Below are positions 27,207 to 55,202 of a stretch of 55,202 bases of DNA, one piece after another. Within the stretch, counting starts at the first letter, position 1; each line of letters opens with the position of its first letter. Both the position numbers and the translations under genes were made by a program. The DNA is taken from NCBI GenBank assembly GCA_001769505.1, contig MEOF01000017.1:1-55202 (forward strand). Direction: 5' to 3'. Source of the stretch: Bacteroidetes bacterium GWF2_33_38. GTDB taxonomy: Bacteria > Bacteroidota > Bacteroidia > Bacteroidales > GWF2-33-38. Under the pieces are notes generated by a model. It ran no database searches. It was not told the origin of the DNA and saw only the letters and a program-made list of their open reading frames with translations.

Positions 27207-28451
27207 ATGGAAATAATCGAAAAAGTAAAAATCCTTGCCGATGCTGCAAAATACGATGTCTCGTGTGCATCGAGCGGAAGTAAACGTGAAAACACCAGTA
27301 CAGGAATAGGCAATGCAATGGCATGTGGAATTTGTCACAGTTTTACCGATGATGGTCGCTGTGTTTCGCTATTAAAAATATTGATGACAAATTATTGCAT
27401 TTACGATTGTGCATATTGCATAAACCGACGAAGCAACGATTTATCAAGAGCAACATTTACGGTTAAAGAAATTGTCGATTTGACAATTAACTTTTACAGA
27501 CGAAATTATATCGAAGGTTTGTTTCTGAGTTCGGGAGTAATTAAATCGCCTGACTATACTATGGAGCGATTGCTGAATGTTGCCAAAGAATTACGAACCA
27601 TCCATAAATATAATGGCTACATCCATTTAAAAGCAATTCCTGGAGCAAGCGAACATCTAATTTACGAAGCTGGACTTTATGCCGATAGAATGAGTGTAAA
27701 CATTGAAATTCCAACCGAAAAGCAATTAATGATTGTCGCACCCGAAAAAAATTTCAAAAATGTTTTAACTCCAATGACACAAATTCGTGATAACATAGTT
27801 TCGAATAAACTCGAACGACAAAAATTCAAAAAAGCCCCCTTATTCACTCCTGCAGGTCAAAGCACTCAAATGATTATTGGAGCAACCCCCGAACACGATT
27901 TTGAAATTATGAAATTAGCCAATAGTTTTTACAAAGAACATAATCTGAAAAGAGTTTATTATTCGGGATTTTTGCCTGTAAACGAATACGATAAACGTTT
28001 ACCTGCTCTAACTAAACCTCCTTTGGTAAGAGAAAATCGCTTGTACCAAACCGATTGGTTGATGCGTTTTTATAATTTTGAATTCGACGAAATTGTAAAT
28101 GAACAAAACCCTGATTTAGATTTATTTATTGATCCAAAATTAAGTTACGCCTTGAGAAATTACCAACTATATCCCGTTGACATAAATGCGGCTGATTACA
28201 ATATGATTCTGAGAGTTCCGGGGATAGGAGTTCGTTCTGCAAAACTTATTATTCAAGCTCGTAGGTGCGGGAGGTTACAATTACATCATTTAAAAAAAAT
28301 GGGAATTGTACTTAAGCGTGCAAATTACTTTATTACTTGCACTGAACTGCCTTTCAGAAACAGTAACTTATATCCTGAACAAATAAAATTCAAATTGCTT
28401 ACACCTGAAAAACGCAAAGAAGTTTATGACACTCAGATTTCGATTTGGTAA
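27207..28451 (+). CDS. Putative DNA modification/repair radical SAM protein
   Basis: This 414-residue protein has the radical SAM triad Cys64, Cys68, Cys71 (CIYDCAYC), preceded by a Cys-containing segment (CGICHSFTDDGRC) typical of the family, and a C-terminal helix-hairpin-helix region (MILRVPGIGVRSAKLIIQARRCG, about residues 330-352, shown in part) that suggests DNA binding. It is the family annotated as putative DNA modification/repair radical SAM protein, which normally pairs with a TIGR03915 gene, as here at 28829. A biochemical activity is not established. The stop codon is the first base triplet of the 8-bp tandem array that follows. Confidence 0.9.
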   Translation: MEIIEKVKILADAAKYDVSCASSGSKRENTSTGIGNAMACGICHSFTDDGRCVSLLKILMTNYCIYDCAYCINRRSNDLSRATFTVKEIVDLTINFYRRNYIEGLFLSSGVIKSPDYTMERLLNVAKELRTIHKYNGYIHLKAIPGASEHLIYEAGLYADRMSVNIEIPTEKQLMIVAPEKNFKNVLTPMTQIRDNIVSNKLERQKFKKAPLFTPAGQSTQMIIGATPEHDFEIMKLANSFYKEHNLKRVYYSGFLPVNEYDKRLPALTKPPLVRENRLYQTDWLMRFYNFEFDEIVNEQNPDLDLFIDPKLSYALRNYQLYPVDINAADYNMILRVPGIGVRSAKLIIQARRCGRLQLHHLKKMGIVLKRANYFITCTELPFRNSNLYPEQIKFKLLTPEKRKEVYDTQISIW

Positions 28452-28760
28452 TGTGGTAATGGGTTAATGTGCTAATGGGTTAATGTGGTAATGTGCTAAT
28501 GTGGTAATGTGCTAATGTGGTAATGTGCTAATGTGGTAATGTGCTAATGTGGTAATGTGCTAATGTGCTAATGTGGTAATGTGGTAATGTGCTAATGTGC
28601 TAATGTGGTAATGTGCTAATGTGCTAATGTGGTAATGTGCTAATGTGCTAATGTGCTAATGTGGTAATGTGCTAATGTGGTGATGTGATGATGTGTTAAT
28701 GTGATAATTTGGTAATTTGGTAATTTGGTAATTTGCTAATTTAATAATGTGCTAATTGGG
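28449..28760. repeat. 39-unit 8-bp tandem array (TAATGTGG/TAATGTGC)
   Basis: From the stop codon of the radical SAM gene onward, 39 consecutive octamers fill 312 bases with no insertion or deletion. The consensus is TAATGTGS; the middle 25 units are almost only TAATGTGG or TAATGTGC, and the last ten degenerate to TGATGTGA and TAATTTGG. It occupies most of the 377-base gap to the partner gene. It contains no spacers, so it is not a CRISPR array. No ORF of significance crosses it. Confidence 0.95.
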
Positions 28761-28828
28761 GAAATGGGAAAAATAAAAAAAAACAATTTCAATCTTACAA
28801 CAATAAGAACAAAAAACTGTTCGCTTTT

Positions 28829-29596
28829 ATGAATATTTTTATCTACGATAAAACATTTGAAGGACTTTTAACCTTGGTTTTCGATGCTTATGAATCAAAA
28901 TTATCGCCCGATATAATTGTCGGAGATTCAGAACCATTTCAAGAATCATTTTTTGATATTAAGCATGTGGTTACAAGCTCGACCTCTAAGTCTAATCGTG
29001 TTTTGAATTTACTAGAGAAAAAATTATCAAAAAAAGCTCAATTAATGATTTTCAGAACATTTTTGTCGAATCAAAGCAATATTGAAAAACTGATTTTCGA
29101 CTACTTAAAACTTTGTATTGATTCACGTTTTTGTATCGAACACAATTATCGTGAATCGTGTGTAATCGACCTGAAAAAAGTAGACCAACGAGTTTCGCTC
29201 GAAGCCATGAAAATGATCTCGTTTGTGAGATTTCAAAAAACAAGCGACGAAATGTTTTATGCAACTATTGACCCAGACAACAATGTGCTTCCATTGATGG
29301 TTAAGCATTTTAAAAACAGATACGCCAATCAAAAATGGATAATTTACGATAGCAAACGTAAATACGGAATTTATTACGATTTGTATTCAACACAAGAAAT
29401 TTTTATAGAAAATTTCGATGCTAATAAATTAAACGGAAAACTCAACAATAATCTGCTAAGCGAAGATGACGTTGAATACCAAAACTTATGGAAAAAATAC
29501 TACAAATCAATAAACATAGAAGAACGTAAAAACTCAAAACAGCAACTCCGATTAATGCCTAGAAGATATTGGAAATACTTGATTGAAAGACAATAA
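28829..29596 (+). CDS. TIGR03915-family putative DNA repair protein
   Basis: This 255-residue protein begins NIFIYDKTFEGLLTLVFDAYE, which is the signature of TIGR03915, and ends with the conserved LMPRRYWKYLIERQ segment. The family is associated with the radical SAM protein upstream and in other bacteria is often fused to a uracil-DNA-glycosylase-like domain; that domain is absent here. The exact activity is unknown. The pair is separated by the tandem octamer array, so co-transcription from the upstream gene is likely but not certain. The start ATG follows a T-rich stretch. Confidence 0.88.
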   Translation: MNIFIYDKTFEGLLTLVFDAYESKLSPDIIVGDSEPFQESFFDIKHVVTSSTSKSNRVLNLLEKKLSKKAQLMIFRTFLSNQSNIEKLIFDYLKLCIDSRFCIEHNYRESCVIDLKKVDQRVSLEAMKMISFVRFQKTSDEMFYATIDPDNNVLPLMVKHFKNRYANQKWIIYDSKRKYGIYYDLYSTQEIFIENFDANKLNGKLNNNLLSEDDVEYQNLWKKYYKSINIEERKNSKQQLRLMPRRYWKYLIERQ

Positions 29597-30281: not shown

Positions 30282-32282
30282 ATGAACGATTTACAACTTT
30301 TTTTTCTTTCATTATTTTTCTTACCAATTGGGTGGATACTAATTGCATTCTTACCAAGTAACAAAAAATCGTATGCAAATATATTTTTTGTAGCATTAAC
30401 AGTTGCTTTAACTTCAATTCCGTCAATAAATGTTTTGATGGGGAAAGAATTTCAATACGTTTTTCCAACGATTAAGTTTTTTGGCGAAATTCCCTTGCGA
30501 ATAGACACACTTTCGGCTTGGTTTATTTTAATAATTAATTTCACAAGCTTAACTGGAGCGATTTATGGCTCTGGATATATGAAACCATATTCTGAACAAA
30601 AATCAAATTTAAGTTTTCATTGGATACAATATTTATTGTTTCATTCGTCGATGATTTGGGTCTGTGTTGTGCAAAATAGTTTAGTTTTTTTGATTGTCTG
30701 GGAATTAATGTCGCTTTCGTCGTTGATGTTAGTAATGTTTGATTATCAAAATAATAAAACAATAAAAGCTGGGTTGAATTATCTGGTTCAGATGCATATT
30801 GGAGTTGCATTTTTATCGATTGCGTTTATTTGGATTTATTTTGCTGAAGGTTCATTGGATTTTATTTACATTAAAGAATTTTTCATTAAAAATTCAAATA
30901 TTTGGCTTTTTCTATTGTTTTTTGTTGGATTTGGAATTAAAGCAGGTTTTATTCCCTTGCATTCGTGGTTGCCACATGCACATCCCGCAGCACCATCACA
31001 TATTTCAGGTGTAATGTCGGGCGTAATCGTAAAAGTTGGAATTTATGGTATTTTCAGAATGATTACTTTTTTGCAACAAGATTACTTAATAATTGGTCAA
31101 ATTGTACTGGGATTATCGCTATCGACAGGATTATACGGAATAATTAATTCTGCTGTTCATCGCGATTTCAAAAAAATGTTGGCATATTGTACTATCGAAA
31201 ATATTGGAATTATTGGTTCTGGAGTAGGTTTAGGTTTGATTGGAATTGGAACTCAAAATCCAATTTTGGTAATTCTAGGATTTTCAGGGGCTTTATTGCA
31301 CACACTAAATCACTCATTATTTAAATCATTATTATTCTTTTCGGCGGGCTCAGTTTATCAGCAAACTCATACAAAAGATATGGAAAAATTGGGTGGTTTG
31401 ATTAAAAATATGCCACAAACTGCATTTTTATTTATCATTGGAGCATTGTCTATTGGGGGTTTGCCTCCTTTCAATGGCTTTGTTTCTGAATTTATTCTTT
31501 ATCAAGGATTTTTGAATGGAATGGGAAGTTCTAATTTTTATCAAACATTTTTTATGATTATGTCGATTGCCGCTTTTGCTATAATTGGAGGCATTTCGAT
31601 GTTTGCATTTACCAAAAGCGTTGGAGTTATATTTCTTGGAAGTCCTCGATATGAGTTACACGCTAAGCCTAAAGAAGTTTCACTAATGATGCGTTTACCA
31701 CAATATTTTATTGTTGCGATTATGCTATCAATCGGCATTTTTCCTGCTTTTTATATCAATTTGGTTTTGAATGTTATTTCAGGCACTTTTACCGAGTATA
31801 GTATTTTACCTTCAAATTTTTATTCCGATTATTTTAGCGTTACAACATCAATCGGAAGATATTCATTACTATTAATTGCCTTGATTGCCATTGTTTATTT
31901 TATCAGAAGCAACATTGAAAAAAGAAAATCATCGCTAGTTTCTTCAACTTGGGGTTGTGGTTATGTTGCTCCAAATGTTTCGATGCAATATACTGGAAAA
32001 TCGTATTCAAAAACATTGGGAAAATTGCTAAGCACGGTAGTTTTTGAACGAAAAAAATACAAAGAAATTAAAGATACTGAGATATTTCCAAATGAGCGGA
32101 CGCATTCAGCTTTTTATACAGATTTTTTTGAATTTCGATTTATCGATAACTTTATAAATAGATTTCTGTATTTTATGGATTTGTTTCAATTTATCCAAAA
32201 CGGAAGATTGCAACAATACATCTTGTATGGATTACTGTTTATTATTGTAGTCTTTTTAGGAACTTATTTAGGTATTATTTAA
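30282..32282 (+). CDS. HyfB/NuoL-type antiporter-like membrane subunit, first copy
   Basis: This 666-residue polytopic protein belongs to the proton-conducting membrane transporter family of complex I and group 4 hydrogenases. Key features are the TM5 glutamate in WELMSLSS (about residue 141), the TM7 lysine and HxxxLP helix GFGIKAGFIPLHSWLP with the following HAHPAAPSHISGVMSG, and the LNHSLFKSLLFFSAGSVY segment. The C-terminal TWGCGYVAPN motif is the HyfB-specific extension. All residues expected for proton translocation are visible, so the subunit should be functional. It opens a seven-gene operon; its stop overlaps the start of a second HyfB-like gene by one base (TAATG). Confidence 0.92.
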   Translation: MNDLQLFFLSLFFLPIGWILIAFLPSNKKSYANIFFVALTVALTSIPSINVLMGKEFQYVFPTIKFFGEIPLRIDTLSAWFILIINFTSLTGAIYGSGYMKPYSEQKSNLSFHWIQYLLFHSSMIWVCVVQNSLVFLIVWELMSLSSLMLVMFDYQNNKTIKAGLNYLVQMHIGVAFLSIAFIWIYFAEGSLDFIYIKEFFIKNSNIWLFLLFFVGFGIKAGFIPLHSWLPHAHPAAPSHISGVMSGVIVKVGIYGIFRMITFLQQDYLIIGQIVLGLSLSTGLYGIINSAVHRDFKKMLAYCTIENIGIIGSGVGLGLIGIGTQNPILVILGFSGALLHTLNHSLFKSLLFFSAGSVYQQTHTKDMEKLGGLIKNMPQTAFLFIIGALSIGGLPPFNGFVSEFILYQGFLNGMGSSNFYQTFFMIMSIAAFAIIGGISMFAFTKSVGVIFLGSPRYELHAKPKEVSLMMRLPQYFIVAIMLSIGIFPAFYINLVLNVISGTFTEYSILPSNFYSDYFSVTTSIGRYSLLLIALIAIVYFIRSNIEKRKSSLVSSTWGCGYVAPNVSMQYTGKSYSKTLGKLLSTVVFERKKYKEIKDTEIFPNERTHSAFYTDFFEFRFIDNFINRFLYFMDLFQFIQNGRLQQYILYGLLFIIVVFLGTYLGII

Positions 32283-34300
32283 TGTTATATTTTTATCTAT
32301 ACATATTAATCGTTCTAATTTCAATCCCTACAATTGGATTGCTTTCGGCAAAAAATAAAGGAATTGCAGTTATCATATCTGTGGTTTTACTAAGTACTGT
32401 AAGCAGTATTCTATCGATAAATGCTTTATCGGGAAATTCAACAACCATATTTTTGTATGGTTCAATAGTTACAAAAACTATCAATTTAGTAATTGACCCT
32501 ATAGCAGCGTGGTTTATTCTTACCATAAATTTCACATTTATTACAGGAGCTATTTATGGAAGCAATTATATGAAAGTTTACGAACAACAAACATCGAAAC
32601 TTTCACTGCATTGGATTAGTTATATTTTTACTCATTCGGCTTTAATTGCGGTTTGTGTGCTACAAAATACATTTGTTTTTCTTATTGCTTGGGAAATTAT
32701 GGCAGTTGGAGCATTTTTCCTCGTAATATTCGAAAGTAACAAAAGTCACACGATTAGTGCAGGTATAAATTATCTAATACAATCACATATTGCAATTATT
32801 TTACTTACCATTGGATTTGTTTGGGTTTATGCAGAAACAGGTTCGTTTAACTTCGATGCCATTAGTGAATTTGCCAAAACTCAATCGAATTTATACAGTT
32901 TCATTTTAATGATAATTTTATTTACAGGATTTGGAATTAAAGCTGGTTTTGTTCCCTTACACACTTGGCTGCCCCATGCACATCCTGCAGCTCCAACTCA
33001 CATTTCAGCCGTCATGTCTGGGGTAATCATTAAAATTGGAATTTACGGAATTATTCGTATGATTTTTTTACTTCAAGTAAATTATTTATTGGTTGGATAT
33101 TTTATTCTTTTCATATCTGTAATTACAGGAATATATGGTGTAATGTTGGCAATTTTACAACATAATTTAAAAAAACTTTTAGCTTATCACAGTGTCGAAA
33201 ACATTGGAATTATTGGAATTGGAATTGGAATTGGTTGTATTGGAATGGGTTACGGAAATACACTTATGTCGGTTCTTGGATTTTCAGGAGCTTTGTTGCA
33301 CACATTAAATCATTCGTTATTTAAATCGCTTTTGTTTTTTGGTGCTGGAAATGTATATCAATCAACACATTCGTTGAATATTGACCGTTTTGGTGGTTTA
33401 ATTAAAAAAATGCCACATACAGCATTTCTATTTTTAATTGCTTCGCTTGCAATTTGCGGACTTCCTCCCTTTAATGGTTTTGTTTCAGAATTTATTATTT
33501 ATTCCGGTTTGCTTGATGGACTTCAACAAACAAGTTTTCCATATTTATTGCCATTTATAATTTCAATACTTGGATTGGCGTTGATTGGTGGACTTGCAAT
33601 GCTCTGCTTTACAAAAGCATTCGGGATGATTTTCTTGGGTTCGCCTCGTCATGAATTTGAACACGAAGTTGAAGAAAGCCACATTCTTAAAAGAATCCCG
33701 ATGTATTTAATTCTTGCATTAATTGTATTGATTGGTATTTTTCCACAATGGTTTATAAATTCTCTTTCGTTAGCTGTTGCACAATTAACAAGTATTAAAA
33801 CAACAGTTCCTAAATCAATCAATGTAAATTTAATTGAGACAATAGAAATTATTGGTCGAAATTCAATTGCACTTATTTTATTATCAATTTTTATTTACTC
33901 AATTCGAAATAGAATAATATCTAAAAAGCAAATTACACACAATACAACATGGGGTTGTGGTTATATTGCTCCTACAGAAAAAATGCAATACACCGCAAGC
34001 TCATATATTCGAGCTTATCGAAAACTTGCCGAACCGTTGCTTTCAATCACAAAACACAAGAAAAATGTACAAGGTATTTTTCCCGATAAAGCCAAACACG
34101 AAACGCATTCAAATGATGGAATTGAAGAAATAATACACTGGCCTATTCAAAGACTTCGTTATTTCTTAGATACTTTTTCGTTGTTGCAAAAAGGGAAATT
34201 ACAACTATACATTTTATATGGAATGATATTTATTTTAACCTTAATTATCATTCCTTTAACAATCTATATATATGAATTATTTATCCATTTTTTAAATTAA
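32282..34300 (+). CDS. HyfB/NuoL-type antiporter-like membrane subunit, second copy
   Basis: This 672-residue paralogue of the preceding gene has the same landmarks: WEIMAVGAF with the TM5 Glu, GFGIKAGFVPLHTWLP with the TM7 Lys, HAHPAAPTHISAVMSG and LNHSLFKSLLFFGAGNVY. It also keeps the C-terminal TWGCGYIAPT motif. The two are clearly tandem duplicates that have since diverged. The start ATG overlaps the previous stop by one base. HyfC follows after 9 bases. Together with the HyfF-like gene at 35871 the complex would have three antiporter-like subunits. Confidence 0.92.
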   Translation: MLYFYLYILIVLISIPTIGLLSAKNKGIAVIISVVLLSTVSSILSINALSGNSTTIFLYGSIVTKTINLVIDPIAAWFILTINFTFITGAIYGSNYMKVYEQQTSKLSLHWISYIFTHSALIAVCVLQNTFVFLIAWEIMAVGAFFLVIFESNKSHTISAGINYLIQSHIAIILLTIGFVWVYAETGSFNFDAISEFAKTQSNLYSFILMIILFTGFGIKAGFVPLHTWLPHAHPAAPTHISAVMSGVIIKIGIYGIIRMIFLLQVNYLLVGYFILFISVITGIYGVMLAILQHNLKKLLAYHSVENIGIIGIGIGIGCIGMGYGNTLMSVLGFSGALLHTLNHSLFKSLLFFGAGNVYQSTHSLNIDRFGGLIKKMPHTAFLFLIASLAICGLPPFNGFVSEFIIYSGLLDGLQQTSFPYLLPFIISILGLALIGGLAMLCFTKAFGMIFLGSPRHEFEHEVEESHILKRIPMYLILALIVLIGIFPQWFINSLSLAVAQLTSIKTTVPKSINVNLIETIEIIGRNSIALILLSIFIYSIRNRIISKKQITHNTTWGCGYIAPTEKMQYTASSYIRAYRKLAEPLLSITKHKKNVQGIFPDKAKHETHSNDGIEEIIHWPIQRLRYFLDTFSLLQKGKLQLYILYGMIFILTLIIIPLTIYIYELFIHFLN

Positions 34301-34309
34301 TTTAAAATT

Positions 34310-35212
34310 ATGTTGAGTTTTATATTGGTTATATTGGTAAGTTTTGTTTTCACAGGAGTTGTAATTAGAACCAAAAGTATTGCTTCAGGGAGAAAAGGTC
34401 CTGGGATTATGCAGCCAATGAAAGATATTTATCGTTTATTTCGGAAGGGTGCTGTATATAGCGAAACTACCAGTATAATTTTTCAAATTGCACCAACCAT
34501 TTATTTTTCATCGGTTGTAATGGCGATAATGGTTTTGCCATTCGGTCATACAAGAGGACTTATTTCTTTTAATGGTGATTTTATTTTTTTTGCATATGTG
34601 TTGGCCTTGGGTAAATTTTTCAGCATTATTGCTGCCCTTGATACAGGAAGTAGTTTTGAAGGAATGGGAGCCAGCCGCGAAGCATTGTTTTCGATGTTAG
34701 TTGAGCCAGCATTCTTTATTTTAATTGGTTCACTTGGAATACTTACAGGCTATACATCTTTTCACGAAATATTTATGACCTTCCATTTCTCAACCTATAT
34801 CACGTATGCAATTGGAGTTCTTGTAACCTTTGTTTTAGCAATGATTTGTATGATTGAAAATAGTCGTATGCCTGTTGACGATCCAAAAACTCACCTCGAA
34901 TTAACAATGATTCACGAAGTAATGATTCTTGATAATAGTGGTTTTGATTTAGGGTTAATTTTACAAACAACGAATTTAAAATTTGCAATGTATGGAGCAT
35001 TGATTGCAAACCTTTTCATGGGAAATTTAGTTTGGTACTTTACAATTCCTTTGTTCTTCATGTTTCAATTTTTGTTTGCTATAACGGTAGGTATACTCGA
35101 ATCGTTTTCAGCAAGATTTAGAATGAGTCATAATGCACAATTTATACTTGTACTTTCATCTATCTCGTTACTGGTTTTCTTTGTTATATTAATGATAATG
35201 AATAAATTTTAA
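34310..35212 (+). CDS. NuoH/HyfC-like membrane anchor subunit
   Basis: This 300-residue membrane protein is homologous to complex I NuoH and hydrogenase-4 HyfC/HycD, the subunit that links the soluble arm with the membrane arm. Recognisable parts are RKGPGIMQPMKDIYRLFRKG, the DTGSSFEGMGASREALFS region and the acidic loop ENSRMPVDDPKTHLELTMIHE, which in complex I contributes to quinone-side proton transfer. The acidic residues are intact. Position and length are normal for HyfC. Confidence 0.92.
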   Translation: MLSFILVILVSFVFTGVVIRTKSIASGRKGPGIMQPMKDIYRLFRKGAVYSETTSIIFQIAPTIYFSSVVMAIMVLPFGHTRGLISFNGDFIFFAYVLALGKFFSIIAALDTGSSFEGMGASREALFSMLVEPAFFILIGSLGILTGYTSFHEIFMTFHFSTYITYAIGVLVTFVLAMICMIENSRMPVDDPKTHLELTMIHEVMILDNSGFDLGLILQTTNLKFAMYGALIANLFMGNLVWYFTIPLFFMFQFLFAITVGILESFSARFRMSHNAQFILVLSSISLLVFFVILMIMNKF

Positions 35213-35228
35213 TTAAAATATACTGATT

Positions 35229-35858
35229 ATGATAAATATACTTCTCATCGTTTTCACTATAACGCTTTTATATTTCGTAATTGCTAATCGATTAATAACT
35301 TATGTTAACATCTTAGCTTTTCAAGGCGTTTTATTGTTTGGAGTTGCATTTTTTGAACTCCATGAAATCAATCTAGTAAATCTTATTTTCATTTTATTAG
35401 AAACTTTAGTGATAAAAACATTTGCAATCCCAATGTTTCTAAGATATGTAATCAAGAAAAATAATATTACTCGAGAAGCGGAACCTTACCTCCCAAATTT
35501 TGCGTCCCTAATTATTGTAACATTGATTATTGTAACCACATTTGTTGTGTCAAATGTAATAAACGACCCTCATTTAAATAAAATATATTTTGTTGTTGCA
35601 TTGTCAACATTATTCAGTGGATTATATTTTATAACAACGAGAAAAAAAATTGTTACACACGTAATTTGCTATGTGATAATCGAAAATGGCGTTTTCATAC
35701 TTTCACTTGCTGTTGGAGCCGAAATGCCGTTACTTGTAAATTTGGGAATTTTGCTCGATGTTTTTGTCAGTGTGTTTTTATTGGGAATTTTCATTAACAA
35801 AATTGGAGATGTAATGCAAGAAATGGATATTTCGGAACTAAACAAATTAAAAGATTAA
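35229..35858 (+). CDS. HyfE-like membrane subunit
   Basis: This 209-residue protein has about six hydrophobic segments and is placed between the HyfC-like and HyfF-like genes, as hyfE is in hydrogenase-4 operons. HyfE corresponds to a fusion of a small membrane domain with NuoK-like helices; here the segment ENGVFILSLAVGAEMPLLVNLGILLDVF matches that conserved NuoK-like part (an acidic residue in the membrane helix, GILLDVF). The rest is only weakly diagnostic, so the call rests partly on position. Confidence 0.85.
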   Translation: MINILLIVFTITLLYFVIANRLITYVNILAFQGVLLFGVAFFELHEINLVNLIFILLETLVIKTFAIPMFLRYVIKKNNITREAEPYLPNFASLIIVTLIIVTTFVVSNVINDPHLNKIYFVVALSTLFSGLYFITTRKKIVTHVICYVIIENGVFILSLAVGAEMPLLVNLGILLDVFVSVFLLGIFINKIGDVMQEMDISELNKLKD

Positions 35859-35870
35859 AAAATTAAGGCT

Positions 35871-37298
35871 ATGATTTTAATATATTTAATAGGAACATTT
35901 TTAATTAGTATTTCGTTATTTTTCAATAGAATAACAGCCGTTAGAAAAGCATTAGTAATGTTGTTTTTAATTCTACAATGGGCATTTACATATTATGAGT
36001 TTACTCATAAAGGAATTACTGAATTTAATTATTTTAAACCCGATGCAATAGCAATTCTTTTACTGTTTACTATTAGCATTATCAGCGTTCCTGCATTGTT
36101 GCATAGTTACGATTATATTTACAAAGAAAAAGATAATCGAAAAGCACGAACCATATACTACATCGCCATGATTTTCTTAATCATGGCACTAAGTGCAGCT
36201 TATGTTTCATCGCATATTGCAGTAACTTGGATTTTTGTCGAAATTACTACACTAAGTGCCTCTGCATTAATTTTTCATCGTCGAAATGCAGGTTCAATCG
36301 AAGCAACATGGAAATATATTTTTGTTTGCTCAATAAGTATTATGTTTGTATTTATTGGGATTCTCTTCTTAAGTATTGCATTAGGAACTTCAAACGACGA
36401 TAGTTTACATTATGACAGTCTTCTTACACTCGCACCATCGCTTAATCCATTTTGGTTACGACTTGCATTCATTTTTATATTTGTAGGATACACCGCCAAA
36501 CTAGGTTTAGTGCCAATGTACACAGCGGGAATTGATGCAAAAGATAAAGCCCCTACCCCTGCTGCAGCTTTATTCTCGAGCGTATTAATGAATGTTGGCT
36601 TTATCGGATTCTTTAGATTTTATGAAATTATCGCACATACTTCACTCCATTCATGGGCAAATCATGTTGTTATGATTGCCGCATTTTTATCAATATTTGT
36701 AGCTACGGTTTATGTATTGAAAGTAAAAAACATGAAACGGATGTTAGCGTATTCAAGCATCGAACACATGGGTTTAATCATGCTCGGAATTGCGGTTGGA
36801 GGAATTGGGTATTATGCAGCAATTTTACATCTAATCTTGCATTCTTTTGCTAAGTCAGCTCTATTCTTTCAAATAGGGCATATTTATAAAGTTTACCATA
36901 CAAAAAACATTTACTATTTAGGAAATTATTTCAAATACAATTTATCGGGAGCTTTGTTTTTATTATTGGCATTTATTTGTGTAACTGCAATGCCTCCGTC
37001 AGGATTGTTTGTAAGTGAATTCTACATCTTTAAAGCAATGTTTGCGGCAAACTATGTTTATGTTTTAATTCCTGTTTTGATATTGCTTACTTTTATTATT
37101 TGGACGTTTGCTAAAAATTTCTTTAAAATAGTGTTTATTTCTCCTGTTGATTTTGATGAAACTCAAATTCAAAAAATTAATCACTTCGAAACAGTTTCGC
37201 AGTATGCCTTACTTGCATTAGTAATATATTTAGGACTAAATCCTCCTGTATTTTTTGATAATTTAATTAACGAAGCCATAAAAAATTTAATATTCTAA
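35871..37298 (+). CDS. HyfF-like antiporter-type membrane subunit (NuoN/NuoL family)
   Basis: This is the third antiporter-like subunit, 475 residues. It has WIFVEITTLSASALIF with the TM5 Glu, then GYTAKLGLVPMYTAGIDAKDKAPTPAA with the TM7 Lys and the loop that in HyfF replaces the HAHPAAPS loop of HyfB, and KNMKRMLAYSSIEHMGLIMLG. The His-containing HLILHSFAKSALFFQIGHIY segment completes the set. It lies 12 bases after the HyfE-like gene and one base before the large-subunit gene. Confidence 0.92.
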   Translation: MILIYLIGTFLISISLFFNRITAVRKALVMLFLILQWAFTYYEFTHKGITEFNYFKPDAIAILLLFTISIISVPALLHSYDYIYKEKDNRKARTIYYIAMIFLIMALSAAYVSSHIAVTWIFVEITTLSASALIFHRRNAGSIEATWKYIFVCSISIMFVFIGILFLSIALGTSNDDSLHYDSLLTLAPSLNPFWLRLAFIFIFVGYTAKLGLVPMYTAGIDAKDKAPTPAAALFSSVLMNVGFIGFFRFYEIIAHTSLHSWANHVVMIAAFLSIFVATVYVLKVKNMKRMLAYSSIEHMGLIMLGIAVGGIGYYAAILHLILHSFAKSALFFQIGHIYKVYHTKNIYYLGNYFKYNLSGALFLLLAFICVTAMPPSGLFVSEFYIFKAMFAANYVYVLIPVLILLTFIIWTFAKNFFKIVFISPVDFDETQIQKINHFETVSQYALLALVIYLGLNPPVFFDNLINEAIKNLIF

Positions 37299-37299
37299 T

Positions 37300-38799
37300 A
37301 TGGAATTTTTAACAATACAAAATAATCAAAGAGTTGATATTTCGTCAATACCCGTGCTACAGTATGAAGATTTTTCATCATTCATTATTGATTTAATAAA
37401 TGATAATGATAACCATTGCGTAAATTATTATGGATATCAAGACAATAATCAGATTAAACTAATTTGTTGTATAGCCAACGATACGCAGCATGTCATTTAT
37501 GTAACATCTTCAATAGTTGATAAAAATTCTGAATTGAATTCAATTTCTAAAAAACATCTCTCATTTGAAAAATTTGAAAGAGAAATTCACGAAAATTTCG
37601 GAATTAATTTTATTGGTCATCCTTGGTTAAAGCCAGTTAGGTACGCATTTAATAGAGCCGATAAAACAAAAACAATTGCCAATTATCCATTTTATACTAT
37701 TGAAAGTGAAGAACTACACCAAGTAGGTGTTGGTCCGATTCATGCCGGAGTGATTGAACCCGGACATTTTCGGTTTATTTGCAATGGCGAACAAATTCTA
37801 CATCTCGAAATACAACTAGGATATCAACACAGGGGAATTGAAGAATTATTTCTACAAAAGAAAGAACTAATTCAACGAGCAACTCTCGCTGAAAATATTG
37901 CAGGCGACACCGTTGTAGGTCATTCAGTCGCATTTGCAAATGCATGGGAAAGTTTATGCGATTATACTCCTTCCGAAGCTTTACAATTTGATAGAGCCTT
38001 GGCTTTAGAACACGAACGAATTGCAATTCACACAGGCGATTTGAGTGCAATATGTGCCGATATTGCCTATCAACTTGGAAATTCAGTTTTGGGAAGGTTG
38101 CGAACTCCAGTAATTAATTATTTTCAACAATGGTGTGGGAATAGGTTAGCCAAAAGCTTAATTCGACCTTTTAAAACCAACTTTCCGTACAACGAATACT
38201 TATCAGAAAAATGGTTTGAAGTTTTTGATGCTTTCTTGCCTGATTTTAATGAAATATGCGAACAAATATTTGATTTGCCGTCAGCATTATCACGACTTGA
38301 AAAAACAGGAGTTGTTAAAACAGAAGTTGCTGCTGAAATTGGAATGGTTGGAGTAGCAGCTAGAGCAAGTAATTTTAATCGAGATATTCGATTTTCGCAT
38401 CCATTTGGTTATTATAAAAACGAATCGTTCAATTCAATTATGGGAAAAAATGGCGATGTTTATTCTCGTTCAAAAATTAGAATGGATGAGGCAAATCAAT
38501 CAATATCTTTCATTAAAGAAATGTTGAAAAAAATTCCAAATCACGAAATTCAAGAAGGAGAAATCATAAATGAACCAAAACCTAATTCATTTGTTGTTTC
38601 ATTAGTTGAAGGTTGGCGTGGAGAAATTTGTCATTGTGCCATTACTGACGAAAAAGGAGAATTAAAACACTACAAAATTAAAGATCCATCATTCCACAAT
38701 TGGCTTGCATTAGCACTTTCGGTTAGAAACGAAGGAATTTCTGATTTTCCGGTTTGTAATAAAAGTTTCAACCTTTCATATTGTGGACACGATTTATAA
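37300..38799 (+). CDS. NuoCD/HyfG-like large subunit lacking the NiFe-binding cysteines
   Basis: This 499-residue soluble subunit has a NuoC-like N-terminal part (about 1-145) fused to a NuoD/hydrogenase-large-subunit part (EPGHFRF, LGYQHRGIEELF). In NiFe hydrogenases the N-terminal motif is ICGxCxxxHS; here it reads AENIAGDTVVGHS near residue 205, with Ala and Thr in place of the two Cys. The C-terminal DPCxxC is replaced by NLSYCGHDL: the two ligand positions carry Ser493 and Gly496, and the single Cys495 is between them. No NiFe centre can be bound in the standard way, and no maturation genes are in the window. The subunit is thus complex I-like or Ehr-like, not a hydrogenase. Confidence 0.93.
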   Translation: MEFLTIQNNQRVDISSIPVLQYEDFSSFIIDLINDNDNHCVNYYGYQDNNQIKLICCIANDTQHVIYVTSSIVDKNSELNSISKKHLSFEKFEREIHENFGINFIGHPWLKPVRYAFNRADKTKTIANYPFYTIESEELHQVGVGPIHAGVIEPGHFRFICNGEQILHLEIQLGYQHRGIEELFLQKKELIQRATLAENIAGDTVVGHSVAFANAWESLCDYTPSEALQFDRALALEHERIAIHTGDLSAICADIAYQLGNSVLGRLRTPVINYFQQWCGNRLAKSLIRPFKTNFPYNEYLSEKWFEVFDAFLPDFNEICEQIFDLPSALSRLEKTGVVKTEVAAEIGMVGVAARASNFNRDIRFSHPFGYYKNESFNSIMGKNGDVYSRSKIRMDEANQSISFIKEMLKKIPNHEIQEGEIINEPKPNSFVVSLVEGWRGEICHCAITDEKGELKHYKIKDPSFHNWLALALSVRNEGISDFPVCNKSFNLSYCGHDL

Positions 38800-38810
38800 A
38801 AACGAAGAAT

Positions 38811-39560
38811 ATGTTCAATAATTTTAAAATATTATACCATCAAGGAAAACAATTTATTCCTGATGTTACCACGGTAGAAGTTCCGGGAATTTTTAGAGGA
38901 AGACCTATCATAAGTACAGAATCGGTTGATGTAAAAAAACTTCAAAGCGTTTGTCCAACAAAAGCAATTGGCGAAAATCCCGTTAGTATCGACATGGGAA
39001 AATGCACATTTTGTGGTGCATGTAGCATTGCATTTCCGACTAAAATTAAATTTACAAAAGATTACAAAACGGCATCAAACGAAAGAGAAAATCTTATTGT
39101 TTACGAAGGAGTTGAGACTCCCATAAAATTTGACCCCAATAAAACTCGAAAAGAAATTCACTCATTATTCAAAAACTCTTTAAAATTAAGACAAATTTCA
39201 GCCGCTGGAGACAATAGTTGCGAGTGGGAATTAAACGCAGCAGGTAACGTAAATTTCGATATGGGGCGTTTTGGAGTTGAATTTGTAGCTTCGCCTCGAC
39301 ATGCCGATGGAATTGTAATTACTGGTCCAATAAGTGAAAACATGGCAGAACCACTTAAGATTTGTTACGATGCAACTCCTAGTCCGAAAGTAATTATCTT
39401 AGCAGGAACTGATGCAATCAGCGGTGGAATTTTTAACGAAAGTCCGGCTTTAAATAGAAATTTTTTAAACAATTATAAAATTGATTTGTATTTACCTGGA
39501 AATCCTACGCATCCTTTAACTATTATTAATGGTATTCTGGGTTTAATCGGAAAAAAATAA
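38811..39560 (+). CDS. Ferredoxin-NuoB (HyfH/HyfI) fusion subunit with a reduced cluster set
   Basis: This 249-residue soluble subunit starts at 38811 (MFNNFKILYHQGKQF), 11 bases after the large-subunit stop. Residues 1-80 correspond to HyfH: GIFRGRP, then Cys48-Pro, and Cys65, Cys68, Cys71 with Phe75 in place of the fourth Cys before Pro76. Cys48 with 65/68/71 makes one complete [4Fe-4S] site; the other cluster is gone. Residues 125-249 are NuoB/HyfI-like (FGVEFVASPRHADGIVITGP). Of the proximal-cluster ligands only Cys137 remains; Asp134 (in DNSCEW), Asp201 (GTDAISGG) and Asn231 (LPGNPT) replace the others. The electron path is therefore shortened to a single ferredoxin-type cluster. Confidence 0.9.
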   Translation: MFNNFKILYHQGKQFIPDVTTVEVPGIFRGRPIISTESVDVKKLQSVCPTKAIGENPVSIDMGKCTFCGACSIAFPTKIKFTKDYKTASNERENLIVYEGVETPIKFDPNKTRKEIHSLFKNSLKLRQISAAGDNSCEWELNAAGNVNFDMGRFGVEFVASPRHADGIVITGPISENMAEPLKICYDATPSPKVIILAGTDAISGGIFNESPALNRNFLNNYKIDLYLPGNPTHPLTIINGILGLIGKK

Positions 39561-44298: not shown

Positions 44299-47200
44299 CT
44301 ATTTTCTCATTATCAGTATTCGTTTTGCAATGTATTGTTTCCCTGCATTTACACGGAACATATAAACACCCTCAACTGCATTACTTAAATCTATTGTTAT
44401 TTTTCCCTCGTTATCGGATTGCTTTTCAGAGATGAAAACAAGTTCTCCAATCATGTTGTATACTTCGACCATAATTTCAGAATTGTTTTTCAAATCGAAT
44501 GAAACATTTACAATTCCTTTAGATGGATTTGGGAAAAATTTAACATAATTACTCAAATCACTAGGATTGACATATGAAATAGGGAATGTAACAAAATATG
44601 TTTCAGAAATCATACAACCATTTTCGTCTGTCATGGTTACGGAATATTCGCCTGATTCAAGATTGTAAATATCCTCAGTAGTTTCAAAGTTACTCCATTG
44701 ATATGTCATCATAAAACCGGAGTTTGTAGTAACATCTATAGAGCCGTCTGCACAGTTAACGCAACTAGAATTTTGAATAATTGTATCGGTAACTTCAAAA
44801 TCAGCCTGATATCCAATTTCATAGTTCTCGATATCAGTACAACCATTAACATCGGTTGCTGTTACTGAGTAATTACCAAATACTACATATGAAATATCTT
44901 GAGTAGTATATCCATTCGACCATTGATATGTAAACGGAGCATCGCCTCCTTGTACGGAAATATTTATTGATCCATATCCCCAACCACAATAATCGTTTTG
45001 AATATCATCTAGCAACACAAACATATTCCCTTGAGTATTTTGAATTGTTATTGATTCTGATTGACTACAACCCGAATTATCTGTAACTGTATATGTATAA
45101 ACTCCCTCGCTCAAGCCTGATATATTTTGTTCAGTTTCACCATTGCTCCATTCAATTAAATATGGAGCAACTCCTCCAGAAATTACCAAATTAATACTGC
45201 CTTGAGAATTGCTACATATTTCGTTAGTTGAAGTGAAAATTACTTCTAAGCCATTTGTTAAATTCTGAATAGTATAACTTCCAAAAACATTACAATCAAC
45301 ATTATCCGTAACAGTAACATCATACACACCTGAATATATAGATGTCAAATCTTGTGAAACAGCTCCATTGCTCCATAAATATGTATATGGAGAACTTCCT
45401 CCTGAAATAGAAATATCAATTGCTCCGGCATTATTTCCACAATATGTTTCGGTAATGTTGACATTACTTATATCTAAAGTCCCAGCAATATTTTCAACTG
45501 TGTTTGTTTCAATTATTTGGCAGCCAAAATTATCTGTAATACTTACAGTATATTCACCTGCTGTAATATTTATAATGTCTTCGGTATTAGCTCCGTTGCT
45601 CCACAAATAAGTATATGGCAAACTTCCTCCCGAAACAGAAATATCTATCGAACCATTATAATTTCCACAATTATCATCAATAGTGTTTACTGACAAAATA
45701 TTGAAGTTCCCAGTTGAGTTATTTACTGTGATTGACGTGCTGTATGTACAACCATTTGATTCGGTAATGGTTAATTCATAATCTCCTGCATCTAAATTTG
45801 ATAAATGATTTGTGCTAGATGGAGTAAACTCACAAGAAGTTGTTCCCGAGTATATAGGACCAACAGAAGGCGAAGGACCATCGCTAAATACAACATCTCC
45901 GCTTGAATTTAATAATTCGTAGCTATTTTCTTCATCCCAAGAGCCTGATGAATAATTCAATTCGATGACATCTCCATTACACACGTCAAATGTTTCGGTT
46001 GAACCATTACCAACGGCATAAAATGTTCCCATCGATTCGCTATTAATTACAACTTCTAAATATCCTCCATTCCAATCGTCGCCAAATGAATCAAACATTT
46101 GAAGAGTGTAACTACAGCAAGGAGAAGTGATTGTTTGAGACCATTCGTAAATATAAGGAGTTGTTCCACCTGTGGCAATTACGGTAATTGCTCCTTCAGA
46201 ATTATCGCATATTTCGTCGGTTACATCTAGCGAAATAATTGAAATCGTTCCAGAGTCATTTAAGGTAATTGTTTCATGTGTTGAACAACTGGTTGCATCG
46301 GTAACTGTAACAGTATATAATCCTCCTATAACGTTTGTAAGGTCTTCAGTTGTTGTTCCATTACTCCAAATAATAACATATGGAGCAGAACCTCCTGTTA
46401 CTGTTAGATTTATTGCTCCGTCATTATTTCCACAGAAAGCTTCAGTAGTTGTGCTTGACAATGATAATCCATTGGTTTGATTAGTTACGGTGAAATTATC
46501 TTGTATTACACAACCACTTGCATCGGTAACTGTAATTTGATAGTCTCCCGACAAAATATTATTTAAGTCCTCAGTAGTAGCTCCATTGTTCCATGATATT
46601 ACAAAAGGTGTTTCATCTCCAAGTATTGTTACATCTATTGCTCCGGTCAAACTTCCGCAATATGTATCGGTAATAGAACTGATACCAAAAGCTAGTGTCC
46701 CTAAGTTGTTTACAATAGTAACTGTTTCTTCGAGCATACAATAGTTGTCATCGTAAATAGTTACAGTATAGATTCCAGATGATAATCCACTTAAATTTTG
46801 AGTATTAGCTCCATTACTCCAATAATATTGATAAGGTTCCAATCCTCCTGATACACTTAAGTCAATTGAACCCGAATTATTGTTGCAATATTCATCAACT
46901 TTATCTACAGATGAAACTACAAATCCATTAGTGCTGTTCAATACAATTGCCGAATCGCTTGCATAACATCCATTTGCATCAGTAACAGTTACGCTATATT
47001 CTCCTGCACTTATATATTCAATATAACTTGAATTCGGAAGGCTTATCTCACAAGTAGATGTACCTGAGTAGATTAATCCTTCACTAGGACTTGGACCTGA
47101 GTACAATATCCAATTCCCTTGAACATCAAGAAGGTACACATAATTATCCTCGTCATTACTACCACTTGTGTAATATAATTTTAAATCATCGTTTGTGCAT

Positions 47201-50200
47201 ACAGGAATGGTTACATATATATAAGAACCAGAAGTTAGCGTGTAAGTTCCTATCGAAACATCGTTAACCTGAACATCAACATAACTACCAATCCATCCAT
47301 CACCATTTACATCGTATAAATACATGCCATAACTGCAACATGAAGAGTTCGCCATTTGCCATTCATACGAGTATGGATAACTTCCACCTGAAGCAGAAAC
47401 ACTTATTGAACCATTTGAATTACCGCAATATTCGTCGGTTACATTCATTGAATTTATAACAACTCCTGTATTGGTACTTAAATTAATTGTTTCGTTTGTC
47501 ATACAAGAAGTTGCATCAGTAACTGTAACGACGTATGTTCCTCCAGAAATATTTGTAAGGTCTTCTGTTGTTGAGTTGTTGCTCCATAAAACAGAATATG
47601 GAAGCACTCCTCCTGAAATAGTCATGTCAATTGAAGCATCGCTATTACCACAAGTCGGTTGAGTTTCAACAAAAGCTAGGCTAAGTCCATTGGTTTGATT
47701 AACTACGATAAAAGTATCTTGAATTTGACACCCGGTATTGTCGGTAATTGTAACAATATACGAACCTGAAACAATATTCGATAAATCTTCAGTGGTTTCC
47801 CCATTACTCCAAGAATATGTAAATGGAATAGATAATCCCGTTGCTGTTATATCAATGCCTCCTGTATTATCTCCACAATATGTATCGTTTATCGAAAAAG
47901 CTCCAAAAGCAAGTGTACCTGGATCATTGTTAACAAGAATCGTTTCTTCAAGTTTACAATAGTATGAATCGTAAATAGTTACGGTGTATGTTCCCTGTGA
48001 AATACCTGACAAGTTCTGAGATGTTTCGCCATTGCTCCAATAGTACATATATGGTTGTTCTCCTCCTGTGACTCCAATACTAATTGTACCTGTTCCACTA
48101 TTACAATAATCGTCGGTTTTTATAATTGACGTTATTTCAAATCCATTTGTATTATTAATTACTGTAGCAGTATCGCTATCTACACAACCATTTGCATCAG
48201 TTATGGTAACAGCGTAAACACCTTCGCTTAAACCATAAATACTACTAGAAGAAGGAAAACTTGTGCTACAAGAAGTTGTACCGGAATATAAAAATCCATT
48301 GTTCGGATATGGACCTACGTCGTACACAATATTTCCCGAAATATCAACAAGATAAATATAATTATCAGCCCCATCAGAAACTTCATTGTAATTTAATTGA
48401 ATAACATCGTCGGTACATATCGGAATATTAAATGTAGTACTAAAATCAGTAAATAATGTATATGTTCCGAGTATAGTTCCATTTATTAGAACCTCCACCG
48501 AACTTCCATTCCAGCCATCGCTAGATAAATCGTACAAATACAAATAATAATCGCAACATGTTGAGTTTTCGGCCAATGCCCACTGATAATTGTAAGGATA
48601 GTCCCCTCCTGACGCAATAGCACTAATTGAACCATCTGAGTTTCCACAATTTTCGTCAGTAACATTCATTGATGAAATATTTACGCTGCTTGTTCCACTC
48701 AAAACTATAGTTTCTGTCGCAATACAAGAGGTTGAATCGCTTACAGAAACAGAATAAGTTCCTGCAAATAAATTTAATATATCTTCCGTAACTGCTCCAT
48801 TATCCCAATATATTGAGTACGGTGAAAATCCTCCTGATATACTCATATCTATTTCTCCATCGTTATTTCCACACATTGGTTGGATTTCTGTAAAATCAAG
48901 ACTTAATCCATTTGTTTGATTGATGATTTCAAACGACTCGATAATTGAACATCCGCTTGCATCGGTAATTGTAACAATGTATGAGCCAGAATTAACATTG
49001 GATAAATCTTCAGTTGTTGCTCCATTATTCCATAAAAAGCTAATAGGAACTTCGTCGCCGTATACGGTAATATCAATTGCTCCATTTGAACTACCACAAT
49101 AAGTATCATCAACCATCGCAGTGTCATAACCAAGAGTCCCTGTATTATTTAAAATTTCATATGTTCCTGATATTTGGCAACCATTAGCATCAGTAACAAA
49201 TACGGTGTAAGTTCCAGATGCAAGTCCCGATATATCTTGACTTGTGCTTCCATTGCTCCAAATATATTGATAAGAGGGGCTTCCTCCTACAACTGTTATA
49301 TTTACAGCCCCAATATTACTATTACAAAAATCATTAGTAACAACATTCGATGAAATAGTAAAGCCACCGGAATTATTGTCAATAGTTGCCGAAGCAGATG
49401 TATTACAACCATAAAAGTCAGTAATTTCTACAGAATAATCACCGGCACCAAGATTTGTTAAAACATTTGAATTCGGTGGATTAAAAGTGCATGAAGAAAC
49501 TCCCGAATATGAGTTTCCATTCATAGGATAAGGTCCGTCTGAAAATACGGTTTCTCCGTTTGAATTTACCAATGAATACGAAACATTACTATCATCATAT
49601 CCTGAATAGAAATTCAGTCCGATAATATCTCCTGTACATACAGGAATATTTTCTATTAAATTGCCTCCATAGGTTGTAAAATAGTTAATTATTTCACCAT
49701 TTACTGATACCCCGACGTAGGCATAATTCCAACCATATCCATAGTTATCGTATAATTCAAGAGTATAATCGCAACACGAAACACTAGTATTTGTCGACCA
49801 TTCATACTGATATGGTTGTGTACCTCCGCTTACAATTATTTCAATCCCCCCTTGTGTATTTCCACAATTTTCGTCGGCAATATTTACAGCCGAAACCTCA
49901 ACGGCTCCCGAAGAAGCCACATTATAGGTTTGATTAAGGTAACAGCCTGTTGCATCTTCAACAAAGACCGTATAATTTCCGGATGATAAATTTATTAAAT
50001 CTTCATTGGTAGTCCCGTTGTTCCATGTATATGTGTAAGGAGTTGTTCCTCCTGTTATGGTTATATCTACAGCTCCATTTGATGCTCCACACAATGCCAT
50101 TGTTGTAGCTCCTGAAGCCGTAAGATTTCCTGCATCGTTTTGAATTACAGTTGAATAATTGAGTTCGCATCCAAGATTATCTGTAGCCGTACACGAATAA

Positions 50201-53200
50201 ATACCCGAAGGTAATGATGAAATATTTTGAGTTAAACTTCCATTGTTCCATATGTATGATATTGGTAAAGCTCCTCCTGATAATGATACATTTATAGAAC
50301 CATTATTACTGCCGCATGAAGCATCGCTTTCGCTTATAGAAACAAGTGCAAAATTTCCCGAATTATCATTTATTGTTAAGACATTTGTTTGAATGCTACA
50401 ACCGGTATTATCGGTTGTTGTCAAAGTATAATCACCAGATGATAGTGATGAAATATTTTGAGTTGAAGAACCATTGCTCCACGAAAATAAATACGGAGCA
50501 GAACCTCCCGAAATTGCCAAATTTATACTTCCATTATTGTTTCCACAAACTTCATCTACAATCTGAATATTCGAATATGCTAATGTTCCTGAGGATTCTC
50601 CCACAAAATAATTTCCGGTAACAGTACAATTTCCGGCATCGCTCACGGTAACTTGATAATAATCCGATGTAAGCCCTGATATATCTTGTGTTACAGCAGC
50701 ATTCGACCACAAATATGTCAAAGGATTAACGCCTCCGTTTACACTTATATCGATTGCACCATTACTATTTCCACAGTTTTCATTTGAAATAATTGGGTTA
50801 GAAATTGACATTAACCCAGCACTATTGTTAATCAAAATATTTCCTATACTCACGCTACACCCTGAATTATCGCTAATGGTACAAGAATAAACAGCTGCCG
50901 ATAAATTACTTATATCTTCAGTAATTGAACCATTGCTCCAAGAATATGTATATGGTAGCACTCCTCCTGTTAATGAAATATTAATCGCGCCATTTGCGGC
51001 ACCGCATACTTCATTGCTCATAGATTGAATTTCAACATTAAGATTTCCTGCTTGATTACTTACTTGTGTTGAACCACTAACTAAACAACCTTGAGAATCT
51101 TCAACGCTCACGGCATAAATTCCTGAATTCAACAGGTTTAAATCTTCAGTATTGTTTCCTGAAGACCAAGAATATGTGATAGGATTCAACCCTCCACTTA
51201 TAATTAGATTTATACTTCCCGTTCCATTTCCACAAATCTCATCTGTTACAACAAAATTTTCTATATTTAAAGAACCTTGTTCATTTTGAACATTTGCATT
51301 TACCGTAAAATAACAGCCTACTGAATCGGAAACATAGCAAGAATAAGCCCCTTCTGAAAGGTTAAATAAATTTTGTGAAACTGAGCCCGTATTCCAACAA
51401 AATGTATAAGGAGTTGTACCTCCGCTAATGTCTATCTGAACAGAACCCAATCCATTTGAACAAATTTCATTAATACTTGAAACAGATTCTAGAACTAATG
51501 TTCCTGGAACATTTATAACATTAACATTTCCGGTTGTAATTGAACATCCCAAATTATCGGTAATTGTTCCGGAATATGTTCCTGCCGATAGATTATAAAT
51601 ATTTTGAGTAGTAGCTCCATTTGACCAATAATAAATGTAAGGTGTAGCACCTCCGCTAACGAGAATTTTAATTTCTCCTTCGTCGTTTTCACACACTTCA
51701 TTTTTCGCATTGATATAAGTAAAAGCCATTGTTCCAGAATTATTGCCAACAATGTATTCCGGAGTTATAAGATCACAATCGCTACCATCAGTTATCGTAC
51801 AAGTGTACCCCCCCGGTAAAACCCCTATCAAATCTTGTGAATTCGCTCCATTTGACCAATGGTATGAAATAGGATAATTACCACCTGAAATATTTATGTC
51901 AATCGAACCATTTGCTTGTCCACAATCTGAATTCATTGCATTTCCATAAACCAACTCAAGTGTTCCTGTGTTGTTGTTAACTTCATACGTTTCGTGTATT
52001 GCACACAAGTTCGCATCGGTTAACGTTAGGCTATATATTCCTGAATTTAGATTAATTAAATCTTGACTTGTAGCTCCATTCGACCAATTATAATAATATG
52101 GTTGAACTCCTCCTGACGGCGTAATATCAATTCCCCCGCTTGCATTTCCACATAATTCATCATTTATAGAAACGCTACTTATTGCTAGTGAACCTACCAA
52201 ATTACTTACAATGAATGACTGATTTACGATACAATTTTCAGCATCTGTAATAGTAACATCATAGCTTCCTTCTCCAATTCCAGTAAGGTCTTCAGTATTT
52301 GCACCATTATTCCAAGCTACTAAGTAAGGTAAATTTGTTGTATAAATATCGAGTTGAACACTTCCATTTGCGTTTCCACAAATTTCATCAGTTGAGGTAA
52401 CATTTTGAATTGCTAAATCACAATCAGGAATACAATCTCCAACCAAATTTATAACATTGTATGATGATGCTTTAGTACACATATTTGCATCACTTACCGT
52501 AACATTATAAACTCCTTGTTGTAAACCATCAATATCTTGAGTAGTAAAAGAGTTTGACCAAATATAAGTATATGGAGAAACACCCCCAATAACCGATAAA
52601 TCAACGACTCCATCAATATTTCCACATGATTCATTCGTTATTGTACTAGAAACAAATAATGGATTTGCAGCTAAAATTTCAAAGTTTGAAGCACTTACGC
52701 AACCTGAAAAATCAGAAATTTGAACACTATAATTACCAGGATTGAGCGAATTAACATCTTCTGTTGTTTGTCCCGACGACCATAAATAAGAATACGGAGG
52801 AGTTCCACCTGTCAATGTTAAACTAATGCTTCCATTATTAGCATCAACGCATGTTTCATTTGATACGCTTGATGATATTGATGCAGCACTACTATTTGGG
52901 AGACTGAATGTCTTGATAAATGTACACCCCAAAGCATCAGTAACTGTAACATTATGAGAACCTGCTGGTACGTTGGAAATATTTTGAGTAGTGGCTCCAT
53001 TGCTCCAATTATAAGTAAAAGGAGAATTTCCTCCGATAATCGTAAGACTTATTGCACCATTGTTAGAACCACATGAAGGAAGAGTTGTTGCTCCTGTGAT
53101 TTCAGGCTCCGATGGCTGAGTCAATGTGATTATAGAATCTGGACGATCTGCCGCAATGCTGATACTCCAATTAAAAATATATCCGTTATTATTCGGAATT

Positions 53201-55008: not shown

Positions 55009-55202
55009 AGATGAATGGAGTTTATATAACGACATATCAATTATTTACAAAGTAATTAACAATATAAAGTTAGTAAAAAAAATATTATTACCAATTCAAA
55101 ACTAATATAAGTTCTATAGTTCGTTCAACTCATATATAACTCCCCTGTTTCAATATGAGCATAAAATACCCCATCCCTTATTTTAGGGCAAATTATGCGG
55201 CA

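Follow-up and report, generated by a model that had tools for sequence, protein, structure and literature searches.

The 55,202-nucleotide stretch of DNA from Bacteroidetes bacterium GWF2_33_38 analysed here (the window) encodes a seven-gene complex of the energy-converting hydrogenase-related (Ehr) type in whose catalytic module neither redox centre appears to be left: the NiFe site has gone, as in all Ehr complexes, and so, in a subfamily of Bacteroidota, has the proximal [4Fe-4S] cluster. Judged by residue conservation, the canonical electron path towards the former active site evidently breaks off at the final relay, and strong constraint evidently acts on everything else in the complex. 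The original prediction for this operon had noted neither the missing proximal cluster of the small subunit nor the disappearance of one of the two clusters from its ferredoxin domain.

The operon (30282-39560, plus strand) comprises seven genes, all at the coordinates first called, with intergenic gaps of -1, 9, 16, 12, 1 and 11 bases in order. They are, all on the plus strand, two tandem copies of a HyfB-like antiporter-like subunit (B1, no. 1, 666 aa, 30282..32282; B2, no. 2, 672 aa, 32282..34300), a HyfC/HycD/NuoH-like membrane anchor (C, 300 aa, 34310..35212), a HyfE-like membrane subunit (E, 209 aa, 35229..35858), a HyfF-like antiporter-like subunit (F, 475 aa, 35871..37298), a NuoC-NuoD/HycE-like large subunit without NiFe ligands (G, 499 aa, 37300..38799), and a ferredoxin domain fused to a NuoB-like small subunit (I, 249 aa, 38811..39560). 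The start of I is most likely ATG 38811 rather than TTG 38781. Searches with Pfam/NCBIfam confirmed the families of a complex I/hydrogenase-4-like operon: Proton_antipo_M in B1, B2 and F, NADHdh in C, Oxidored_q2-like/HyfE in E, Complex1_30kDa and Complex1_49kDa in G, and Fer4 and Oxidored_q6 in I. Among the 27 ORFs of the window that were scanned, none was assigned to a hyp, formate dehydrogenase or NADH-module family, in agreement with the original observation. Directly upstream of the operon (27207-29596) lie genes for a radical SAM protein and then a DUF4130 protein, a pair that is not conserved with the operon; elsewhere in the window, the minus strand carries one open frame of 3578 aa (44299-55035).

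The large subunit G retains the EPGHFRF and GYQHRGIE markers of its fold, and its AlphaFold model superposes on E. coli HycE over 476 residues (Z 37.7). In the phmmer alignment with HycE, the cysteines of the RxCGxC motif correspond to A201 and T204 of G, and those of the DPCxxC motif to S493 and G496, which bears out the Ala/Thr and Ser/Gly replacements read from the sequence originally; the codons are at 37900..37911 (A201-G202-D203-T204) and 38776..38787 (S493-Y494-C495-G496), both on the plus strand. All four NiFe-ligand cysteines are missing in G and in every relative in the order and phylum alignments, and the predicted inability of the complex to make or use hydrogen at a NiFe site is upheld by this lack of all four ligands. 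G202 and D203 are invariant at the N-terminal site, as are S493, Y494 and G496 at the C-terminal site. The pocket residues H148, E153, H156, R158, G202, D203, D362, R440 and E442, and further N487, K488, S489, S493, Y494 and G496, are common to the cluster-bearing and cluster-less forms of the complex. The quinone-site residues of NuoD are not kept: His38 and Tyr87 of T. thermophilus Nqo4 align with I152 and G202 of G (phmmer alignment), which speaks against a quinone reaction of the complex I type.

In a large-subunit tree, built without the reference Geobacter EhrL, the family rows formed a single clade of 75 rows (SH-aLRT 100) apart from the rows of NiFe group 4 and NuoD; thus, in alignment and tree alike, the subunit has no cysteines at the NiFe positions and does not fall inside a NiFe hydrogenase clade. 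A NiFe hydrogenase with a local sequencing error was rejected, because the same substitutions are found throughout the aligned family and the relatives have no internal stops. The subunit set in one operon, the missing NiFe cysteines and the separate clade support the Ehr identification; the complex is therefore predicted to be of a type that cannot bind NiFe and to represent a subfamily of Bacteroidota. For the neighbouring classes, I lacks the N2 ligands that NuoB carries in complex I and the proximal cluster cysteines of NiFe group 4 (Hyf/Hyc/Ech); these cysteines, which may be an Ehr-defining trait, are also present in 17 cluster-bearing Ehr relatives.

Ehr complexes are known from Geobacter (GSU0739-0745), Nitrospira, Sulfobacillus and Riflemargulisbacteria (PMC4378227, PMC6349859, PMC12342949), and are described as NiFe-less and of unknown function (PMC4378227, PMC12342949). 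Redox coupling has been suspected (PMC6349859) and formate dehydrogenases have been proposed as partners (PMC6349859, PMC7894505); the Geobacter Ehr is more abundant on formate (PMC7894505), and in Nitrospira moscoviensis Ehr expression is not raised by H2 (PMC12342949). No mention of proximal-cluster loss was found in the parts of these papers drawn on here, and its novelty is provisional because Coppi 2005 and Marreiros 2013 lie outside the literature covered.

The small-subunit domain of I aligns with MbhJ, HycG and NuoB, and its AlphaFold model superposes on HycG (Z 17.7). The four proximal-cluster positions (N2-equivalent) correspond to D134 and C137 (within D134-N135-S136-C137, 39210..39221, plus strand), D201 (39411..39413, plus strand) and N231 (39501..39503, plus strand), i.e. 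three of the four cysteines are gone (C to D, C to D and C to N) and only C137 remains. Across 51 distinct sequences of this N2-minus subfamily, some of them near-identical, D134, D201 and N231 are each conserved in 51 of 51, and position 137 drifts (C 40, A 6, N 2, T 2, G 1); three locked positions beside one drifting position argue against simple decay and for a retained role of the pocket. One [4Fe-4S] cluster of ferredoxin type in the ferredoxin domain has its cysteines (C48, C65, C68 and C71; 38952..39023, plus strand) conserved in all 51 sequences, and those of the domain's other cluster are mostly absent from the subfamily. The remaining cluster we take to be of the N6b type, nearest to N2, going by what is known of NuoI.

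The 17 same-phylum Ehr relatives all keep the four proximal cysteines (17/17) and have the same NiFe-less pocket in the large subunit. When I was compared between the 51 cluster-less and the 17 cluster-bearing sequences, the strictly fixed differences amounted to three columns, which are exactly those of the replaced cysteines; the same filter found no strictly fixed difference between the two sets in G, C, E, F and B2. Since the 17 relatives are diverse, which makes a filter for fixed differences severe, it was repeated on only the nearest three of them: about 450 columns show at least 95% conservation within the subfamily, and those at which all three relatives differ were counted. There were five such columns, three being the cysteine positions of I and two lying in the rest of the whole aligned set; G contributed none of its 138 well-conserved columns, and the aligned subunits other than I contributed one of 374. 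Control triples drawn from inside the subfamily gave totals of 0-4 differing columns with this filter. Hence no comparable change occurred elsewhere in the operon when the proximal cluster was lost. With a view to a possible link with anaerobic life, the haem-copper oxidase family PF00115 was counted and occurred in 15 of 15 N2-plus genomes versus 22 of 34 N2-minus genomes, counts that are uncorrected for relatedness.

The residues for ion translocation are retained in the membrane arm. B2 has invariant E138, K220, K251, H344, K348 and E403; C has E124, E132, E183, E197 and E203, invariant in the N2-minus clade; and F keeps E124, K210, K328 and E383, with Asn for the TM8 lysine. Of the residues typical of antiporter-like subunits (TM5 Glu, TM7 Lys, TM8 Lys, TM12 Lys/Glu), B1 and B2 have all and F lacks only the TM8 lysine. 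With this one exception, the pump residues are invariant across the subfamily, and ion translocation is plausible because nearly every residue that was checked is kept. Together with F, the tandem pair B1 and B2 (30282-34300) gives three antiporter-like subunits, the same number as in complex I; only some family members have the second HyfB copy, which a few cluster-bearing relatives (L144, L146, L150) carry too.

Topology tests were performed with a six-protein concatenation from which the ligand columns had been removed. They did not reject a single clade for the cluster-less subfamily (AU p 0.52); with the divergent locus L071 set aside, a single loss was likewise not rejected, although N2-plus rows fall among the cluster-less rows in quick trees. 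L071 is cluster-less as well, with D/C/D/D at the four proximal positions, and a single origin of all cluster losses including L071 was rejected (AU p 1.45e-64); the proximal cluster was lost independently at least once more, in L071. Other phyla were sampled through plasmids. The Ehr operon on plasmid pMESIL01 of Allomeiothermus silvanus (Deinococcota; L159) has T/D/E/S at the four proximal positions and, judged by eye, keeps the same single ferredoxin-type cluster; the organism is a thermophile, and a gene for an ArsR/SmtB regulator is located near this operon. The proximal cysteines are kept in plasmid-borne Ehr of Variovorax, Rhizobium, Azospirillum, Cupriavidus, Methylocalor and Rhodococcus, and all of these except Variovorax have a NuoB-like subunit without a ferredoxin domain. 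On plasmid 3 of Variovorax sp. PBL-E5 (L158), the first Ehr operon is followed, about 3.4 kb further downstream, by at least part of another Hyf-like operon (hyfB and genes for NuoH-like, formate hydrogenlyase-like and hyfF products).

The large subunit was found in 36 of 149 genomes of the same order, the own genome counted, and 395 genomes drawn from across the phylum added 16; among the named genomes that were scanned, relatives occur in Bacteroidales, Salinivirgaceae, Paludibacter and other MAGs from sediment, groundwater and gut, and no relatives were found in viral contigs. The order relatives of G share mostly 46-71% identity with it (one has 38%), and nearly all are full length, one being cut by a contig end; none has internal stops. 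The operon can be split: in three genomes (G054, L068; G057, L064; G541, L096), G and the membrane genes lie at separate places in the genome, with I alongside G in L068 and L096. As all three genomes still encode subunit C elsewhere, there is no support for G and I acting as a soluble pair that lacks a membrane arm. The check for co-conserved neighbours, proposed originally, found no recurring gene outside the operon among 63 loci (the most widespread non-operon neighbour cluster occurs in only 4), so the neighbours name no redox partner. The host genome also encodes an apparently intact, Hox-type (NAD-linked) NiFe hydrogenase (L171:1-3953, G000:C10) with the motifs CGIC and DPCLSC, and HypD on contig C46; the ligand losses in the operon are therefore due neither to poor sequence nor to missing maturation genes.

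We consider it close to an even chance that the complex is an intact, selected, ion-translocating variant of Ehr, acting as an Mrp-like exchanger that is gated by a ligand in the conserved pocket and is non-redox. Electrons would not reach the old active-site pocket via the usual chain, so that the membrane arm would not be driven by that reaction, and the proximal cluster would be either dispensable or replaced one for one. The membrane arm would most likely be a proton/cation exchanger like Mrp; the former hydrogenase arm would have become a ligand-binding and gating arm, whose signal would pass through the retained E-channel of subunit C; and the single ferredoxin-type cluster may be a structural or redox-sensing element. 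This is consistent with the fixed D134, D201 and N231 as against cysteines in 17 of 17 relatives, with the unchanged pocket and the kept pump and E-channel residues, and with the recurrent loss (L071 and the Allomeiothermus plasmid) and the ferredoxin-less NuoB-like subunits of other plasmid-borne Ehr. As counterpoints, the invariance of the remaining ferredoxin-type cluster (51/51) is as compatible with a redox role as with a structural one, and ion gradients are the only driving force identified.

The same invariant cysteines would also be expected of a redox-driven pump, a possibility of lower but real probability, in which ferredoxin reduces the remaining [4Fe-4S] cluster and electrons continue to a substrate or another (mononuclear) metal held by D134, D201 and N231 in the vacated pocket. 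The three fixed residues could act as oxygen ligands, and the rest of the complex is unchanged, as expected if a new site does the old job; as far as sequence can tell, the Asp/Asp/Asn site of I may carry a second metal or cofactor. Against this, position 137 is free to vary, Asp/Asp/Asn is to our knowledge outside the known ligand sets for [4Fe-4S] clusters, and the Allomeiothermus copy, with T/D/E/S, indicates that no common ligand set is kept. The original prediction of a proton- or sodium-pumping complex driven by an unknown redox partner is plausible as far as ion translocation is concerned; the partner is weakened for this subfamily because the proximal ligands are gone and one ferredoxin-type cluster is left without a canonical wire to the pocket. 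In its remaining form, with a soluble partner passing electrons straight to the pocket of the large subunit or to a quinone in that pocket, it appears unlikely: the very strong conservation of the G pocket and the redox coupling and formate dehydrogenase partners proposed for Ehr (PMC6349859, PMC7894505) speak for it, and the missing proximal cluster, I152 and G202 in place of His38 and Tyr87 of NuoD, and the lack of a co-conserved neighbour gene speak against it.

The fixed polar residues in both former cofactor pockets could, by analogy, also form a new, non-redox active site for CO2 hydration or another lyase-type reaction driven by the ion gradient, for which cyanobacterial NDH-1MS and DAB are the comparison systems; with neither a carbonic-anhydrase-like subunit in the operon nor conserved carbon-metabolism neighbours, this is more improbable still. 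The absent cofactor ligands alone would fit a decaying pseudo-complex or a sequencing artefact of a NiFe hydrogenase, whose probability is negligible: the conservation data refute it, given the open frames in the family, the 46-71% identity of most order relatives and the invariant pump and pocket residues, and the true NiFe hydrogenase of the genome has intact motifs.

With the exchanger gated by a ligand as the preferred reading, it is conceivable, though we would put it at somewhat below an even chance, that some of the complex I superfamily works with no electrons passing through the catalytic module, the hydrogenase arm of Ehr controlling an ion exchanger either by ligand gating or structurally; in that case, the NiFe site and the proximal cluster could be lost repeatedly with the rest unaltered. 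The published Ehr proposals assume redox coupling (PMC6349859, PMC7894505). A natural variant whose wire is cut and whose pump, pocket and operon are intact lets evolution alone tell redox-driven from non-redox models, and offers a test system for the electron-free control of a complex I membrane arm.

Compared with other Ehr complexes, the HyfB/C/E/F-like membrane subunits, the hydrogenase-like large and small subunits and the missing NiFe ligands are alike, whereas the present complex has D/D/N in place of proximal [4Fe-4S] cysteines and only one of two ferredoxin clusters left. Formate hydrogenlyase/hydrogenase-3 and hydrogenase-4 of E. coli (HycCDEFG, Hyf) share the subunit folds, the NuoC-NuoD fusion and the HyfB/HyfF-like pumps; unlike these, the present complex has no NiFe ligands, proximal cluster or formate dehydrogenase module. 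With respiratory complex I (NuoB, C, D, H, L/M/N) it has in common the architecture of Q-module and membrane arm and the E-channel glutamates, but not the N2 cluster, the Tyr87/His38 quinone residues or the NADH module. Mrp-type cation/proton antiporters also have antiporter-like subunits and work without redox chemistry; they are not known to have a NuoH-like anchor or a hydrogenase-like peripheral arm. The Mbh and Mbs complexes of P. furiosus have related large and small subunits and both retain the proximal cluster, and Mbh, in contrast to the complex described here, retains the NiFe site.
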